From NCBI GenBank assembly GCA_027310365.1, contig DAIDAY010000006.1, positions 1 to 39,337 on the forward strand: a stretch of DNA of 39,337 nt, read 5' to 3'. Source of the DNA: a bacterium (GTDB taxonomy: Bacteria > Patescibacteriota > Minisyncoccia > UBA6257 > GWB1-50-10). Below are positions 8,586 through 34,777 of this stretch, piece by piece; position 1 is the first letter of the stretch, and each line of letters begins with the position of its first letter. The notes beneath the pieces were generated by a model. It did not search any database. It saw nothing but the letters and a program-made list of their open reading frames with translations, and had not been told where the DNA came from. The position numbers and the translations under genes were made by a program.

Positions 8586-8605
8586 GGCTGATAGCTCAAA
8601 ACCCA

Positions 8606-8648
8606 AAACGCAAAATGCAAAGGTGAATAAGTTTTGCATTTTGCGTTT
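8606..8648. repeat. Intergenic inverted repeat with heptad word NGCAAAA
   Basis: AAACGCAAAATGCAAA (8606-8621) / TTTGCATTTTGCGTTT (8633-8648), perfect 16 bp with 11-nt loop. Confidence 0.85.
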
Positions 8649-8665
8649 CGCCTTTTGCGCTACTT

Positions 8666-19152: not shown

Positions 19153-19154
19153 AG

Positions 19155-19226
19155 TACCGGTGGCAGGGATTGAACCTGCGACCTAGGGCTTATGAGTCCC
19201 TCGCTCTACCACTGAGCTACACCGGC
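19155..19226 (-). tRNA. tRNA with CAT anticodon (elongator Met most likely; Ile2 not excluded), CCA not encoded
   Basis: GCCGGTGTAGCTCAGTGGTAGAGCGAGGGACTCATAAGCCCTAGGTCGCAGGTTCAATCCCTGCCACCGGTA; anticodon loop CTCATAA; followed by CT then the pheS ATG. Confidence 0.9.
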
Positions 19227-19245
19227 GTTCATCTCAATAATTTCC

Positions 19246-19282
19246 ATTATAAATTGACCGAAACGATTTTTTCAAGTATAAT
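19246..19282. promoter_or_regulatory. Interleaved divergent promoters for tRNA-Met/pheS (-) and tRNA-fMet (+)
   Basis: Plus: TTGACC (19254-19259) - 17 nt - TATAAT (19277-19282). Minus: TTGAAA (19270-19275) - 18 nt - TATAAT (19246-19251). Confidence 0.75.
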
Positions 19283-19284
19283 GT

Positions 19285-19301
19285 GATAACTTTAAGTTAT
19301 C
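19285..19301. repeat. 17-nt palindrome GATAACTTTAAGTTATC abutting tRNA-fMet
   Basis: GATAACTT-T-AAGTTATC; predicted TSS lies within it and it ends at tRNA nucleotide 1. Confidence 0.7.
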
Positions 19302-19375
19302 GCGGGGAGGAGCAGCGGTCGCTCATCTGGCCCATAACCAGAAGGTCGCCGGTTCGAATCCGGCCCCCGCAACCA
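19301..19375 (+). tRNA. Initiator tRNA-fMet (CAT), CCA encoded
   Basis: CGCGGGGAGGAGCAGCGGTCGCTCATCTGGCCCATAACCAGAAGGTCGCCGGTTCGAATCCGGCCCCCGCAACCA; C1xA72 mismatch diagnostic of initiators. Confidence 0.93.
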
Positions 19376-28791: not shown

Positions 28792-29997
28792 TTAGAACGT
28801 CTGGGAGAGACTGTAGATCGGCAGGAGTATCGAAGCGAAAAGGAAGGCGATCACGACGCCGATCACAACCATGAGGATCGGCTGGATCAGCGAAACGAGG
28901 TTTTCAACCGTGTCCTCGACTTCCCGCGAATAAAAATCGTTCACCTTTCCCAGGAGTTCTTCCATCCGTCCGGTGGATTCTCCGACGCTGACCAGCTGCG
29001 AAACGAGCGGCGGGAATTCCGGCGCGGCCGCCAGGGCCTGCGACAAGAGCTTCCCCTTCCGTATCTGCTCCGCCGCGTTGTGGAGGGATTCTTCGTAAAT
29101 GGTGCTTCCGATGACGCGCGAGGATATTTCGACGGCTTGCGGGATCGTCAATCCTCCCTTGATGAGCACCCTCGCCGATTCGGCAAACCGCGAGACGTAC
29201 AGTTTCTGCAGCAGCTTGCCGATGACCGGCGTTTTCAGAACGATGGTGTCCAAAACCACTTTCCCTTCCGTGGTCTGGAAGTAGTCGATGAGTATGAAAA
29301 CAACCGCCGCGAGCGCGATGACGACCGTCCACCACCAGCGGATCATGAACTGGCTGACACCGAGGAGGATGACCGTGAATATCGGCAGTTGGACGTTCGA
29401 TTCGCTCAAGATCGGCGTAATCTGCGGGAAAACCATAGTCACCATGATGAGAACGACGACGACGAACAAGATGATGATGAAAATGGGGTACGTCAAGGCA
29501 TTTTTAACCTTGGAAAGGAGCGTTGCCTGCTTTTCTATGTAATCGGCCAAGAAATTCAGAACTTCGCTCAAGCGGCCGGTTACTTCGGCGGATTTCACCA
29601 TGTTCACGTAAAATTCGGAAAATATCCCCGGATGTCTTCCCAAGGCCTGCGAAAGCGAGAAGCCGGCATCGATGTCTCCCGCTATCTCGTAGATCGCTTC
29701 CTTCAGCACCGGCTTCGCCGTCTGCCTGTAGAGGCTCGCCAAGCTGTCCGAAAGCGGCACCTGCGACGCAAGGAGAGTTGCGAACTGGCGCGTAAAAATC
29801 ATGAGATCCTGGACCTTGACCCTCTTGAAAAATTCCAGAATCTTGGATCCCCAGGTATTCTCGACGACGGGCTCCAAACTCAAAATGAAAAGACCGTGGC
29901 TCAAGAGGATCGCCAAGCCCGCTTCTTTCGACGCGGCTTCCACGTTTCCCACCTGAAGTTCTCCTTCTTTGGTTCTCGCCTTGTAACTGAACTTCAT
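28792..29997 (-). CDS. pilC: Type IV pilus inner-membrane platform protein PilC/GspF
   Basis: FSYKARTKEGELQVGNVEAASKEAGLAILLSHGL ... FTRQFATLLASQVPLSDSLASLYRQ ... ARVLIKGGLTIPQAVEI. Confidence 0.95.
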   Translation of the reverse strand: MKFSYKARTKEGELQVGNVEAASKEAGLAILLSHGLFILSLEPVVENTWGSKILEFFKRVKVQDLMIFTRQFATLLASQVPLSDSLASLYRQTAKPVLKEAIYEIAGDIDAGFSLSQALGRHPGIFSEFYVNMVKSAEVTGRLSEVLNFLADYIEKQATLLSKVKNALTYPIFIIILFVVVVLIMVTMVFPQITPILSESNVQLPIFTVILLGVSQFMIRWWWTVVIALAAVVFILIDYFQTTEGKVVLDTIVLKTPVIGKLLQKLYVSRFAESARVLIKGGLTIPQAVEISSRVIGSTIYEESLHNAAEQIRKGKLLSQALAAAPEFPPLVSQLVSVGESTGRMEELLGKVNDFYSREVEDTVENLVSLIQPILMVVIGVVIAFLFASILLPIYSLSQTF

Positions 29998-30105
29998 CCC
30001 GTTAGAAGCAAAACACCTTTTTCACAAGCAACAGCTTATGATGCGTGATCAACCCGACTTCTTGAGCGATCGTTCTTTTCATAAATTTGTGGTTTCTCAC
30101 GGGAT
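29996..30105 (-). promoter_or_regulatory. pilC leader element: long-range stem closing on the start codon plus 26-aa leader ORF
   Basis: 5' strand ATCCCGTGAGAA (plus 30094-30105) vs 3' strand TTCTAACGGGAT (plus 29996-30007, includes first two nt of pilC ATG). Leader ORF 30002..30082 MKRTIAQEVGLITHHKLLLVKKVFCF*. Confidence 0.5.
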
Positions 30106-30155
30106 TCATTACCTTCATTATACCCTATCGGACTTATGCATCCTATCAGTCCCTC

Positions 30156-31229
30156 TTACGTTCTCTCCAAAAGAATTCTGAGCTCGGCCGGATTCAGAGA
30201 ATAGGATTCCGCTTGCTCGAGAGAGATTTCCTTTTTCTTGATGAGGTTCACGAGCGACCGATTCAAGGACATCATCCCTTCCTGGACGCTCGTTTCGATC
30301 ACGAGGTCGATCTGGTAAATTTTCCGCTCGCGGATCAAATTCCTGATCGCGGGATTGACGATCATGATTTCCATGGAAGGGATTCTTCCGCCTCCCACCT
30401 TGGGGATGAGCCGCTCGGAAACGATGGCGACCAGGGTCGAAGCGAGTTGGGAAACGATCTGCCCCTGCTGATTCGGCGGGAAGCTGTCGATGACGCGGTC
30501 GACGGTCTGCGAAGCGGAATTGGTATGGAGCGTGGAAAAGACGAGGTGGCCCGTCTCGGCTGCCGTCATGGCCGTCGCAATCGTCTCGGCATCCCTCATT
30601 TCGCCGATCATGATGACATCCGGGTCCTGCCGCAAAACCGCCCGGAGCGCTGAATTGAACGAGATTGTGTCGGCGCCGACTTCCCGCTGGGAAATGATGC
30701 AACGATCTTGGGAGAAAATGTACTCGATCGGATCCTCGATGGTAATGATATGGTCGTTCCTTTTATGGTTTATTTCGTCCAAAAGGGCCGCCAGTGTCGT
30801 CGATTTCCCGTGGCCGGCGGGCCCCACGACCAGCACGAACCCCTGGTTCAATTTTGTGAAGTCATGGAGGATGGGGGGGAGATTCAGTTCTTCCACCGTC
30901 TTGATCTGCGCGGGAATCAAACGGAGGGCGGCGGCGACGAATCCCCGCTGGAAATACGCGTTGACCCTGAACCGCGCTTTGTCCTCGTAGTTATGGGAAA
31001 AGTCGACCTGCTTCCGATCCAAAAACGACGTCTTTTGCTCCTCGCTCAAGAGCGCAAATACCAAACCTTCCGCGTCTTCCTTGGTTAAAATCGGCTCATC
31101 CGTAATCGGAATCAGGACGCTGTCGACCCGGATGGTCGGGCGCCGACCGACCGCCAGATGCAAGTCCGAAGCGTTCTGCTTCGCCGTGATAACAAGCAGG
31201 TTGTCGAGTCTTTGTTTGTAATCAGTCAT
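30156..31229 (-). CDS. pilT: Type IV pilus retraction ATPase PilT
   Basis: ASDLHLAVGRRPTIRVD ... VVGPAGHGKSTTLAALLDEINHKRNDHIITIEDPIEYIF ... LRQDPDVIMIGEMRDAETIATAMTAAETGHLVFSTLHTNSASQTVDRVID. Confidence 0.96.
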   Translation of the reverse strand: MTDYKQRLDNLLVITAKQNASDLHLAVGRRPTIRVDSVLIPITDEPILTKEDAEGLVFALLSEEQKTSFLDRKQVDFSHNYEDKARFRVNAYFQRGFVAAALRLIPAQIKTVEELNLPPILHDFTKLNQGFVLVVGPAGHGKSTTLAALLDEINHKRNDHIITIEDPIEYIFSQDRCIISQREVGADTISFNSALRAVLRQDPDVIMIGEMRDAETIATAMTAAETGHLVFSTLHTNSASQTVDRVIDSFPPNQQGQIVSQLASTLVAIVSERLIPKVGGGRIPSMEIMIVNPAIRNLIRERKIYQIDLVIETSVQEGMMSLNRSLVNLIKKKEISLEQAESYSLNPAELRILLERT

Positions 31230-31230
31230 G

Positions 31231-32961
31231 CTATTCAGTCTCCCGGATAACCTCCTCCAGCGAAACTTCTCCGTTCAAGGATTTCATTATACCATCCTGC
31301 CGCAGGGAAATCATGCCTTGCCGCTTCGCCTCCGCGAGGAGCGCATTCTCGGTGAATCCCCCGCTCACGATATCGGAAAGCTCCTTCGTCATCTTGAAAA
31401 TCTCGAAGAGTGCGACCCGGCCGATCGTCCCCTTCCCGTTGCAAACATCGCAATCGGGAACCGGTTCCGCGTGAAACGACACGTACGGCTTCTTGGTCGG
31501 AAACGATTTTTTCACTTCGTCGGGCGTCAAAGACAGCGCGTCGTCGATGATGTTCTCTTCTTCGGCTGAAACCGGCTTCGGTTTTTTACATTTGGGGCAC
31601 AGCCGACCGACGAGCCGTTGGGCGAGCATCATATTGAGCGAAGATGCCATGAGGAATCCCGGAACGCCGAGATCGACCAGCCGCGGAATGACGCCGATCG
31701 AGTTGTTGGTGTGAAGCGTCGAAAGCATGAGGTGTCCCGTAAGCGCCGCGTTCACGGCAAGACTCGCGGTTTCCGCATCCCTGATTTCGCCGACCATGAT
31801 GATGTCCGGGTCTTGCCGGAGAATCTGGCGGAGCCCCGAAGAAAAATCGTAGCCGATCTCCGGTTTCACCTGCGACTGATTGATTCCTTCCATGAAATAC
31901 TCCACCGGATCCTCCAAGGTCACGATATTCACCTCTTCGGTATTCAGTTTCTGCATGATGGCGTAGAGCGTGGTTGTTTTTCCGGAGCCCGTCGGACCCG
32001 TGATTAATATCATGCCGTAGGGCGCGGCGAGCGCTCCTTCCAAAATTTTCTTGTTATAATCGCTCAAACCGAGTTCGGGGAGCCCCTTCAAGCCGACAGC
32101 CGAATCGAGAACGCGGAGCACGACTTTTTCCCCCGAAGGGGTCGGAAAGGTCGCAACCCTGAAATCGATGTCGCGCCCCGTAATGACCGCCCGGAATCGC
32201 CCGTCCTGCGGCACGCGCGCCTCATCAAGTTTGAGTCGGGAAAGAACCTTAACCCGCGAAACGACGGGGCGGCTCAGAGCAAGGGGGAGCGACGCCGTTT
32301 CTTCCAAATCGCCGTCGATCCTGAACCGGATCCGCAATCTGAGCTTTTGCGGTTCTATATGTATGTCGGATGCCTTCCGCTCGACGGCTTCGCGGAGCGT
32401 CGAGGCGACGATCTTGATGATCGGCGCATCCTCTCCGCTCCCCCCTTCTTCCTCAAGGGAAACCAGGAAAGCATCGGCCTGTTTCACGTTCCCTATTTCT
32501 TCCACCGCCGACTGGACTTCGCTTTTGTACGGCGTGTATTTTCTCCACACGGCGGCAATCTGGGAAGGGGTCACCAGGTACACCCCCAAGCTCAGCCGCC
32601 TTTGTTTCGCGATGAATTTCAGCGCATCCTGCGCCTCCAGATTATCGGGGCGGAGCATGCCGACCACGAGCATGTCGCCGTTCTTTTCGACGGGGATCAC
32701 ACGGTACGTTTTTGACGTGTCCTTAGGGATGAGCGCAATGAGGTCGGGCGTGATTTTTGAAACGTCGACGTCCTTGAAGGGAACGCCGAGCAGCGAGCTT
32801 TTGATTCTGGCGACGGCTTCTTCGCCTGCCAAACGGTTCTGATAAAGAAGATCCTCCGCGCTCTGGCCGCGAAGTCCGGCATCCCGCAACACTTGTGCGG
32901 CGGCCGCTTGAGTAATAATGTTTTTCTCTGCGAGTTTACCGATGAATTCCTGATCAGTCAT
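31231..32961 (-). CDS. pilB: Type IV pilus assembly ATPase PilB/GspE
   Basis: ASDIHIEPQKLRLRIRFRIDGDLEE ... ITGPTGSGKTTTLYAIMQKLN ... LRQDPDIIMVGEIRDAETASLAVNAALTGHLMLSTLHTNNS; CPKCKK...CDVCNGKG zinc site. Confidence 0.97.
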   Translation of the reverse strand: MTDQEFIGKLAEKNIITQAAAAQVLRDAGLRGQSAEDLLYQNRLAGEEAVARIKSSLLGVPFKDVDVSKITPDLIALIPKDTSKTYRVIPVEKNGDMLVVGMLRPDNLEAQDALKFIAKQRRLSLGVYLVTPSQIAAVWRKYTPYKSEVQSAVEEIGNVKQADAFLVSLEEEGGSGEDAPIIKIVASTLREAVERKASDIHIEPQKLRLRIRFRIDGDLEETASLPLALSRPVVSRVKVLSRLKLDEARVPQDGRFRAVITGRDIDFRVATFPTPSGEKVVLRVLDSAVGLKGLPELGLSDYNKKILEGALAAPYGMILITGPTGSGKTTTLYAIMQKLNTEEVNIVTLEDPVEYFMEGINQSQVKPEIGYDFSSGLRQILRQDPDIIMVGEIRDAETASLAVNAALTGHLMLSTLHTNNSIGVIPRLVDLGVPGFLMASSLNMMLAQRLVGRLCPKCKKPKPVSAEEENIIDDALSLTPDEVKKSFPTKKPYVSFHAEPVPDCDVCNGKGTIGRVALFEIFKMTKELSDIVSGGFTENALLAEAKRQGMISLRQDGIMKSLNGEVSLEEVIRETE

Positions 32962-33014
32962 GGGTTAGTTGGCAATCAAAGAGTAATAAATGGCAATATG
33001 CTCGCTCTGCTCGC

Positions 33015-33065
33015 GTAATAAGATTGCGCAACGGCATGACAACTTATTACCTCCCACCTATTACC
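33015..33065. repeat. Intergenic GTAATAAG/CTTATTAC inverted repeat with heptad words
   Basis: gcGTAATAAG...CTTATTACctcccacctATTACCG; minus strand reads CGGTAAT AGGTGGG AGGTAAT in 7-nt register. Confidence 0.6.
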
Positions 33066-33083
33066 GTCTCGTCGCTTACACTC

Positions 33084-33374
33084 TTAGAACGGAACGAAGG
33101 GATTCGTTCTTCCGGGCGCCGGCACCGTGACCGACGATCCGTAGTTCGTCGTGAAATATTTCTGGAGCGTTTGAACGACCGGCGAAGGGTCGATGCGGAC
33201 TTGCGACAATGTCTTGATATCGCTGAGCCCGCCGGGGATGACGACATCGATCAGTTGGGGCTTTTTGAAAAAAACGAAGTACGCGCCGGCGAAGATGACC
33301 GCCACCAAGACGATGATCCCGATGACGTTGAACCAATTGACCGGCTTTTTTTCCTGTTCGACGAATATGGCCAT
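33084..33374 (-). CDS. Small single-TM protein in pil operon
   Basis: MAIFVEQEKKPVNWFNVIGIIVLVAVIFAGAYFVFFKKPQLIDVVIPGGLSDIKTLSQVRIDPSPVVQTLQ; between pilB and pilO-like. Confidence 0.7.
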   Translation of the reverse strand: MAIFVEQEKKPVNWFNVIGIIVLVAVIFAGAYFVFFKKPQLIDVVIPGGLSDIKTLSQVRIDPSPVVQTLQKYFTTNYGSSVTVPAPGRTNPFVPF

Positions 33375-33382
33375 GGCTGTCG

Positions 33383-33952
33383 TTATTTTTCCTGGTAAAA
33401 CGTATTGACCGAGAGCGTCAAGGAATACAGCTGATTTTGCCCTCCCGCGCCGGCCGGTTTGACGTCAAAAGAGGAAACGTTGATGACTCTCGCATTCGAC
33501 TCCAGCGCATTCAGGAATTGTTTGATCGCATCGTAGGTCCCCAAAACCCCGAGATCGACCACGATCGTACTCATCCGCTTGGCGAGGGGTTGGGAAGAAG
33601 GCGCATACGCCGTCCCTAGTTTTATATCGAGGGACTGAACGCTCGCCTGACTTGACTGGGAAATCGTATACCATTGGTTCAGGGCTTGCGTTACGTCGGG
33701 CCCGATCGGCATGGCGAGCGACAGGGTGTTCTGGAGATCGGCCGCGCTCTGGAACTGGTTGATGAGCTGGGAAACCTGCGAGACTGCGTCCTTTTGGGTG
33801 GTGTAAACGTTGGTCTTCGACGCGACCAGCGATTGCAGCTCGCTCGCCGCATCCGTCTCCGGCTGGATCAAACTGGTATACACCACGATGGTCGCGATGA
33901 GAAAAAATACCGAAAACAGGATGCTCAACGCTCTTTTGGTCGAGGATTTCAT
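33383..33952 (-). CDS. PilO-like pilus assembly protein
   Basis: N-terminal TM, coiled coil, small alpha/beta domain; position pilM-pilN-pilO. Confidence 0.7.
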   Translation of the reverse strand: MKSSTKRALSILFSVFFLIATIVVYTSLIQPETDAASELQSLVASKTNVYTTQKDAVSQVSQLINQFQSAADLQNTLSLAMPIGPDVTQALNQWYTISQSSQASVQSLDIKLGTAYAPSSQPLAKRMSTIVVDLGVLGTYDAIKQFLNALESNARVINVSSFDVKPAGAGGQNQLYSLTLSVNTFYQEK

Positions 33953-33959
33953 TCCGCGC

Positions 33960-34071
33960 CTTTAGAGAATCCAGCCCCTCGCGGAGCAAGTTCCTCTTCT
34001 TGTTAGGCCGACCATTTTATTCAATCTTGATCGCTGCATAAAACCCATGGTAATTTTAAAATTCTCTAAAG
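33960..34071 (-). promoter_or_regulatory. pilO leader element: 11-bp perfect stem and 25-aa leader ORF
   Basis: CTTTAGAGAAT (plus 33960-33970) / ATTCTCTAAAG (plus 34061-34071). Leader ORF 33962..34039 MQRSRLNKMVGLTRRGTCSARGWIL*. Confidence 0.5.
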
Positions 34072-34077
34072 CGGGAT

Positions 34078-34647
34078 TCATAGCGGTTTCGAAAGGTACG
34101 CCGAGTTGAACGTCAGCGTCATTGAAAAGGAGGTTCCGCCGCTCGGATTGAAATTCATGCTCGTCAGAATCGCCTTCGTGAGTTCGGGCGCTTTTTCAAA
34201 CTGCGCCATTTGCGCCGCAAGCGTTTGAAGCGAATCGGCTTGACCGCTCAAATCCAAATTGCCGGCGGCGGAGGCGAACTTCGCTTCCGTGAAATAAACC
34301 CGCGGGAGCGTATTCTTCTCGAGAAACGGGAATAGGTTTCCCGTAAAGAGGTGATTTCCCAAAGCGCCTTTCAAATTGACGATCTGCGAGTAAATGGCCA
34401 CGAATTTTTGCTCGTCCTGGGCCGAAACCGAGCTGGCGAGTCCCGCTATGCTCTGATCCAGGGCAGACGACCGGGCATTCAAGTAATTCTCGTATCCCAC
34501 CTTGAGGCCGAAGTAAACGAGCAGCGAGAGAGCGAACAGCAAGAGCGAGAAAACGAAAAGCCGCCATGGCGTTCCGATGGCGATCGGCGCGTTGACGAAC
34601 TGCTCGCCGATACCGCTTCTTGTTTCTTGATTTCGCGTTTCGTCCAT
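34078..34647 (-). CDS. PilN-like pilus assembly protein
   Basis: Single TM (WRLFVFSLLLFALSLLVYFGL) plus periplasmic-type domain; directly downstream of pilM. Confidence 0.7.
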   Translation of the reverse strand: MDETRNQETRSGIGEQFVNAPIAIGTPWRLFVFSLLLFALSLLVYFGLKVGYENYLNARSSALDQSIAGLASSVSAQDEQKFVAIYSQIVNLKGALGNHLFTGNLFPFLEKNTLPRVYFTEAKFASAAGNLDLSGQADSLQTLAAQMAQFEKAPELTKAILTSMNFNPSGGTSFSMTLTFNSAYLSKPL

Positions 34648-34770
34648 CCCGTTAGAAATAATACGCATACGCGGCGTGCGCGGTGCATACCTTATCATCG
34701 ACTACTTTTAGTGATTTCTTGTTCATGAATTTATCCTCTTTTGGCGCGCCTCCGCGATTTCTCACGAGAC
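34646..34770 (-). promoter_or_regulatory. pilN leader element: stem closing on start codon plus 24-aa leader ORF
   Basis: 5' strand GTCTCGTGAGAAA vs 3' strand TTTCTAACGGGAT; leader ORF 34652..34726 MNKKSLKVVDDKVCTAHAAYAYYF*; shares TTCTAACGGGATG with the pilC leader. Confidence 0.5.
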
Positions 34771-34777
34771 TCAATTT

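Follow-up and report, generated by a model that had tools for sequence, protein, structure and literature searches.

Inverted-repeat elements at the start codons of pilus and other genes of Patescibacteria as probable derivatives of GIY-YIG mobile elements

The DNA analysed here, below called the window, is a stretch of 39,337 nt (contig DAIDAY010000006.1; contig 66 of the source genome G000, a Patescibacteria genome of 747 kb in 84 contigs), and it carries a pilus operon on its minus strand in which pilC, pilN and pilO are each preceded by an inverted-repeat leader. These leaders are members of a dispersed family of inverted-repeat elements, and not pilus-specific RNA leaders. Most likely, they are non-autonomous derivatives, similar to miniature inverted-repeat transposable elements (MITEs), of GIY-YIG mobile elements whose insertion falls on start codons and leaves the host gene unharmed through termination and re-initiation of translation. 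The sequence evidence comprises the family itself, its position at start codons, the direct repeats, the empty sites, a GIY-YIG open reading frame (ORF) between the same ends, and the preservation of the leader frame. Judged on this evidence, the mobility of the elements and their start-codon position are well supported.

Three elements of the pilus operon and their dispersed family

The three stems, the leader ORFs and the spacings of 4, 4 and 9 nt between leader and gene, noticed before in a sequence-only reading of the window, were all found on the minus strand as described, and the genes were identified by Pfam as PilC, PilN and PilO. The elements, their flanks, their leaders and the host genes are as follows.

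29997..30104, minus strand: element (a), 108 nt, at the pilC start codon; inverted-repeat ends TCCCGTGAGAAA / CTTCTAACGGGA; empty site in sister species
30105..30108, minus strand: 5' direct-repeat copy TGAA of (a); the upstream start-codon duplicate is the ATG at 30109-30107
29993..29996, minus strand: 3' direct-repeat copy TGAA of (a); makes the pilC start ATGAA
30002..30109, minus strand: leader ORF of (a), 35 amino acids (aa), MNPVRNHKFMKRTIAQEVGLITHHKLLLVKKVFCF and stop; TAA 4 nt upstream of pilC
34647..34769, minus strand: element (b), 123 nt, at the pilN start codon; ends TCTCGTGAGAAA / TTTCTAACGGGA; empty site in the relatives G003 and G004
34770..34773, minus strand: 5' flank TGAG of (b); pairs with the 3' TGGA as a decayed direct repeat
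34643..34646, minus strand: 3' flank TGGA of (b); the pilN start is ATGGA
34652..34774, minus strand: leader ORF of (b), from TTG (a decayed ATG), LSLVRNRGGAPKEDKFMNKKSLK...AYAYYF and stop; TAA 4 nt upstream of pilN
33953..34076, minus strand: element (c), 124 nt, at the pilO start codon; ends TCCCGCTTTAGAGAAT / ATTCTCTAAAGGCGCGGA, of a different terminal-repeat family
34077..34081, minus strand: 5' direct-repeat copy ATGAA of (c); contains the pilN stop TGA
33948..33952, minus strand: 3' direct-repeat copy ATGAA of (c); is the pilO start
33962..34081, minus strand: leader ORF of (c), MNPALENFKITMGFMQRSRLNKMVGLTRRGTCSARGWIL and stop, read from sequence; stops 9 nt upstream of pilO
28792..29997, minus strand: pilC (T2SSF domain; Pfam)
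34078..34647, minus strand: pilN (Pfam); its stop TGA overlaps the upstream ATGA at 34081-34078
33383..33952, minus strand: pilO (Pfam)

The final A of element (a) is also the A of the pilC ATG. The leaders open at ATG 30109 in (a) (MNPVRNHKFMKRTIAQ...VFCF), at TTG 34774 in (b) (LSLVRNRGG...AYYF) and at ATG 34081 in (c) (MNPALENFKITMGFMQRS...GWIL); the ATG ORFs previously noticed in the loops are present, but as the 3' portions of these longer ORFs, which start from the upstream duplicate of the start codon. At the stem ends, the direct repeats are ATGAA/ATGAA in (a) and (c), and a decayed TTGAG/ATGGA in (b). The three elements had been regarded as related, which holds for (a) and (b), as they share the termini TCYCGTGAGAAA / TTCTAACGGGA, but not for (c), whose different termini place it in a small separate family; the ssb start of the source genome probably bears another copy of that family. 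At (c), the ATGA copy on the upstream side remains in use as the stop of pilN, and pilO starts at the copy on the downstream side.

The census of the family covered 414 kb of the source genome and 295 kb of G002, an element-rich relative of the same genus. Pairing of ends gave about 25–30 elements of about 100–130 nt in the source genome, with the general ends TCCCGT-AGAAA / TTTCTAACGGGA, and terminal inverted repeats with the 12-nt ends TCCCGTKAGAAA / TTTCTAACGGGA were present in the census and in the scans. The 3' end TTCTAACGGG matched 10 places in the source genome and its reversed control none, the 16-nt end TTTCTAACGGGATGAA matched 45 places versus 5 in the control (at most 3 mismatches), and the 5' end 61 versus 6 (3 mismatches, source genome). 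In G002, with flanks not fixed, 61 end pairs were found versus 3 in the reversed control. The genes beginning at the 3' ATG, named from their N-termini, were glyA, rplI, ychF, rpoA, topA, secY, eno, tsf, rpsQ, rplX, rpmJ, hrcA, an atpH-like gene, apbE, two pilC genes and others. Thus, the elements are scattered beside unrelated genes, the distribution that the sequence-only reading had named as favouring a mobile repeat. The scan of public genomes extended the family to more than 120 contigs, nearly all from Patescibacteria; the exact end occurred, patchily, in 23 of 380 genomes that had been sampled evenly across the phylum.

Some copies are recent: a pair at two gene starts in G002 is 97% identical, and three near-identical copies occupy different gene starts in the source genome. 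One element lies in the opposite orientation with the ATG still regenerated (L014), and in two tandem arrangements (L124 and L266) the first copy supplied the start codon into which the second went. Where the same gene carries an element in both G000 and G002, the copies are not mutually closest, indicating that these starts were hit repeatedly or that the elements were exchanged.

Related ends were also seen elsewhere. At two places in G002 (L255:7289-7407 and L265:8679-8757) they lie at stop codons, TAAA of rplQ and TGA of ruvC. At L109, L127, L186, L194 and L200 (Firestonebacteria, Stahlbacteria and Omnitrophota) and at L122 (Uhrbacteria), the same inverted ends are flanked by TAAA or TCAA direct repeats away from starts. 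Either related elements reach beyond Patescibacteria or those metagenome-assembled genomes are mixed. Integron attC sites were considered and rejected, as the core triplets face the wrong way. No repetitive extragenic palindromic (REP) sequences or GTAG feet were noticed in the ends, although no search for genes of REP-associated tyrosine transposases (RAYTs) was made.

Insertion into start codons

The direct repeat is mostly TGAA preceded by A, so that insertion duplicates the start codon. The 4-nt flanks were identical in 104 of 130 copies. At sites other than TGAA they matched in 11 of 23 cases, a result equalled in none of 2000 permutations, and deviations such as TAAA, TCAA and TGGA tended to occur on both sides. 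Moreover, empty sites were found for all three window elements. The pilC site is empty in G001, G002 and G003, and in G002 it reads TATAGGGTATAATTAAGGTAATGAAGTTC, the same flank that the element splits in the window; the pilN site of G004 reads TAATTTATGGACCC; and G003 and G004 retain at pilO the ancestral ATGA overlap of pilN and pilO. A mobile inverted-repeat origin, which the earlier reading had mentioned as a second possibility, is thus borne out by direct repeats, empty sites and near-identical copies. The ATG within the stem is the regenerated target site, and not a start codon sequestered for the sake of regulation.

The preference for start codons is strong. Among 36 clear copies in G002, 34 lay at start codons, compared with about 15% expected from the pool of TGAA sites (p about 5e-26); by rough gene calls, the 295 kb hold about 413 TGAA and 1510 TNAA intergenic sites and about 73 ATGAA starts. 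When TGAA was not fixed in the public scan, about 100 of 119 copies ended in a real gene start, and in a phylum-wide sample 18–19 of 20 places were gene starts. The most similar, and hence youngest, copies were all at starts. This distribution suggests either that start codons are the target or that an extremely strict filter acts on the insertions.

If there were such a filter, the elements would be ordinary MITEs with a loose TNAA target, and those at start codons would be the survivors of selection in a compact genome, having destroyed neither gene nor promoter. A start codon would indeed be a harmless site, and the rare copies at stop codons (rplQ) and the TAAA or TCAA repeats of related ends elsewhere fit a loose target. 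However, the 1510 free intergenic TNAA sites are almost unused, the youngest copies are without exception at starts, the same starts were hit repeatedly, and several families with unrelated ends have only ATG in common. We kept this explanation as a rival, but consider it unlikely and disfavoured by the unused intergenic sites.

Leader frames and GIY-YIG nuclease elements

The 23 copies of 108 nt that G000 and G002 yielded all carry an uninterrupted 35-aa frame (MNPVRNHKLMKKMI...KKAFCF and stop), whose end lies at -4 to +11 relative to the gene start. The 23 type-1 copies had no premature stops versus 7.2 expected when the same mutations were placed randomly. Across Patescibacteria, 47 of 97 leader frames were open, compared with 12.3 (maximum 21) in shuffles, and among dissimilar representatives 10 of 23 compared with 2.75; the shuffles involved the interior only, and the frames +1 and +2 were dropped as controls because the terminal repeats carry stops there. 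None of the open leaders was fused in frame to the host gene: 39 stopped at a TAA 4 nt upstream of the ATG and 7 at a TGA that overlaps the ATG. The third-position excess was weak (0.32 versus 0.25), and no clear synonymous excess was found in the leader peptide. With so little constraint on the peptide, it seems to be the open frame, and translation through the element, that matters, and not the product. The preservation of the frame (47 open versus 12 shuffled) fits translational coupling, by which the leader may be linked to its host gene.

Copies of 277–284 nt with the same ends hold a single ORF of about 94 aa, which encodes a GIY-YIG nuclease (PF01541, E=1e-16), a domain that none of the three window elements encodes. 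Among the invariant positions are Tyr, Gly, Arg, His and Glu, of which Tyr, Arg and Glu are catalytic; the structural model is confident, with a pLDDT (predicted local distance difference test) of 88, and among solved folds it comes closest to UPF0213 and the structure-specific nuclease Slx1. The ORF usually opens at the host start codon (MNPVRD...), or else at an ATG just within the element, and ends ...KRFLSLTG with a TGA that overlaps the regenerated ATG. Such full copies lie at the starts of pilC, fmt, pyrG, dnaJ and other genes (named from N-termini). In the source genome only decayed ones were seen, a 201-nt remnant on contig C13 and a 288-nt copy on contig C11, which fits the old, divergent short copies there; G002 has an intact full copy at dnaJ, and its short copies are young. 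Among 99 relatives, short copies are more numerous where a close nuclease is present (mean 8.8 versus 1.4, p=3e-7), at least 3 copies being present in 17 of 20 genomes with the nuclease and in 15 of 79 without it.

The association of a lone nuclease gene with start codons extends to elements with other ends. The GIY-YIG elements at L347, L349, L351, L352 and L354 have ends of a quite different kind, the right one again lying at a gene start, and the pilN start of G002 carries a short element with ends of the L351/L352 type. It is probable, though we hold this somewhat less firmly than the origin of the leaders, that Patescibacteria harbour a class of minimal mobile elements whose sole gene is a GIY-YIG nuclease. 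Such elements would insert in start codons, borrow the host start, regenerate a start with an overlapping stop, and yield short derivatives in which a retained leader ensures continued translation of the host gene, the strategy being shared by several families with unrelated ends.

Further hairpin units were observed in the same genomes. In G008, of the same family as G000, another hairpin family (CCCTCACCCTTCAAAGAT...ATCTTTGAAGGGTGAGGG; L243) lies directly before the pilC, pilT and pilO starts of one operon. At L360, L361, L363, L367, L369 and L378, GIY-YIG genes occupy units of 260–330 nt that lie away from gene starts and have long near-perfect inverted ends; some of their flanks resemble stop codons (TTGA, TAA). 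On contig C33 of the source genome (L283:8383, plus strand), a 244-nt unit with 13-nt inverted ends (GCCTCGTAGTACAAC...GTTGTACTACGAGGC) ends at an ATGAA start and possibly represents another start-codon family. In the window, a 30-nt inverted repeat with an 11-nt loop (8592-8662) lies where two minus-strand genes meet and may be a terminator or a mobile hairpin. The minus-strand order of the pilus genes is pilM (PilM_2), pilN, pilO, a small ORF, pilB, pilT and pilC (Pfam), and two divergent tRNA-Met genes with 75 nt between them lie at 19154-19375.

The elements could instead be moved by a conventional transposase, the GIY-YIG gene being a passenger or a separate parasite. Target duplications of 4 nt, which are typical of DDE transposases, fit this, as does the presence of short copies in some genomes without a close nuclease; to our knowledge, no GIY-YIG transposase has been described in bacteria. 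However, the full 277–284-nt copies have space for the nuclease only, a GIY-YIG gene recurs in each of the families with different ends, and the copy number tracks the nuclease. Moreover, no convincing long transposon with the same ends was found in the 2 Mb of DNA examined, where, the 277-nt nuclease elements apart, long pairs of ends look like chance. We regard a conventional transposase as improbable, to about the same degree as the filter on ordinary MITEs.

Mechanism and its alternatives

In the mechanism that we propose, the parent is the 277–284-nt element in which inverted-repeat ends surround a lone GIY-YIG gene. Its insertion duplicates a short target containing ATG, usually TGAA after A. 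The upstream ATG, still behind the host promoter or the upstream gene, would start the element ORF, that is the nuclease in full copies or a leader of 25–40 aa in short ones, and the last element base together with the duplicated target rebuilds the ATG of the gene. As the element ORF stops at this ATG (TAA 4 nt before it, or TGA as ATGA), ribosomes could re-initiate on the host gene, and re-initiation may thus maintain host expression. The movement of the elements is probably driven by the nuclease, which would cut start codons or their vicinity, or else the base of the end hairpins, with repair spreading the copies. The ends may act as DNA hairpins; Slx1-like nucleases cut branched DNA. An ORF expressed only from a borrowed start codon would give an active nuclease only at start codons, which could alone favour that target.

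Several observations weigh against this explanation. The direct repeat of element (b) is decayed. In Omnitrophota, Firestonebacteria and Uhrbacteria, related ends are bordered by TAAA or TCAA repeats and lie off start codons, and several GIY-YIG hairpin elements are likewise placed elsewhere than at starts. G027 and G029 have many short copies and no close nuclease gene, and the interior of the short element is only weakly similar to the full element, a match equalled by 28 of 500 shuffles. The avoidance of stops in the leaders was not significant when only private mutations were re-placed (p=0.26), so shared ancestry accounts for part of it. Additionally, about half of the elements of the phylum have closed leader frames and yet stand before real genes; leader coupling is therefore not universal and cannot be the sole route.

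Insertion could also be aimed at the transcription start sites of leaderless genes, as open promoter complexes, with which start codons would coincide. Of 97 sites, 25 had a -10-like TATAAT 11–14 nt upstream of the ATG, compared with 87 of 684 background genes (p=0.0016), and motifs resembling a Shine-Dalgarno sequence were scarce at the sites (3 of 97 versus 75 of 684 background genes), both as this explanation would have it. However, most sites have no such box and many are within operons, including those at pilN, pilO, rpsQ and rplX, which makes such targeting quite improbable.

Least probable of all is the cis-regulatory RNA proposed at first, in which a long-range stem masks the start codon of the pilus genes until leader translation opens it: the ATG does lie within the stems, the leader frame is preserved, and the inner arms of dissimilar elements pair best with their own partner (1 of 2000 permutations), a signal that DNA inverted repeats give as well, but we rejected an RNA regulator as the main explanation on account of the dispersal to dozens of unrelated genes, ordinary fold energies, and target duplications with empty sites. 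The folding z-scores of the three window elements in context were -1.4, -0.1 and -0.5, showing no unusually stable fold, an Rfam scan matched tRNAs only and none of the elements, and type-1 copies retain a G-A mismatch in the stem (well-aligned rows only). Of the structured RNA family with leader coupling suggested by the sequence-only reading, the family, its recurrence in relatives and the preserved leader frame are supported, whereas its pilus-specific, structured RNA character is not.

Meaning and comparison with known systems

If the start-codon mechanism holds, it would account for the multiplication of mobile DNA in small genomes packed with genes, where essential genes nevertheless survive the insertions; in a close relative, such an element stands at the start of about 9% of the genes tested. 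Both the mode of insertion and this use of a GIY-YIG nuclease would then be new. The leader peptides or N-terminal extensions beginning MNPVRN... in gene predictions of Patescibacteria are likely traces of these elements, and start sites may thus be misannotated.

The overall anatomy of the elements, with inverted ends, target duplication and short derivatives, is that of known transposable elements. In the open-access literature, we found no such start-codon GIY-YIG element, nor any counterpart to a mobile element that targets the start codon, rebuilds it with an ORF overlapping the new start, and has a GIY-YIG nuclease as its only gene. Bacterial MITEs are alike in being short, non-autonomous and present in many copies, with terminal inverted repeats, target duplication and a larger coding relative with the same ends; unlike them, the elements described here lie at the start codons of all kinds of genes, contain a leader ORF whose frame matches that of the duplicated start, and have a GIY-YIG nuclease and no transposase in the coding relative. 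The domain and its conserved catalytic positions are shared with GIY-YIG homing endonucleases (I-TevI and free-standing ones) and with Slx1/UPF0213-type nucleases. However, homing genes use one cognate site and recombination of flanks, whereas here there are many unrelated sites, inverted repeats and target duplications; a single homing site with homologous flanks was not found, as the host genes are unrelated and their flanks share only ATGAA or ATG.

In rRNA genes of the candidate phyla radiation, GIY-YIG ORFs occur in non-intron insertions, alongside many short ORF-less insertions, which the authors place outside a homing context (PMC11270868). The host group, the GIY-YIG ORFs and the short ORF-less forms are as in our elements; by their description, though, those insertions are confined to rRNA genes, and a search of the text found no mention of inverted repeats, start codons or derivatives (PMC11270868). 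REP sequences and the REP doublets (REPINs) moved by RAYTs are likewise short, dispersed inverted-repeat units mobilized in trans; the present elements differ from them in their target duplication and start-codon position and in the absence of any REP palindrome or GTAG foot among the features seen, RAYT genes not having been searched for. Finally, as in coupled upstream ORFs (uORFs), where a short leader ORF ends at the next start codon in a termination–reinitiation arrangement, the leader here runs up to the start of the host gene, but it arrives with a mobile element and opens at a duplicate of the gene's own start.

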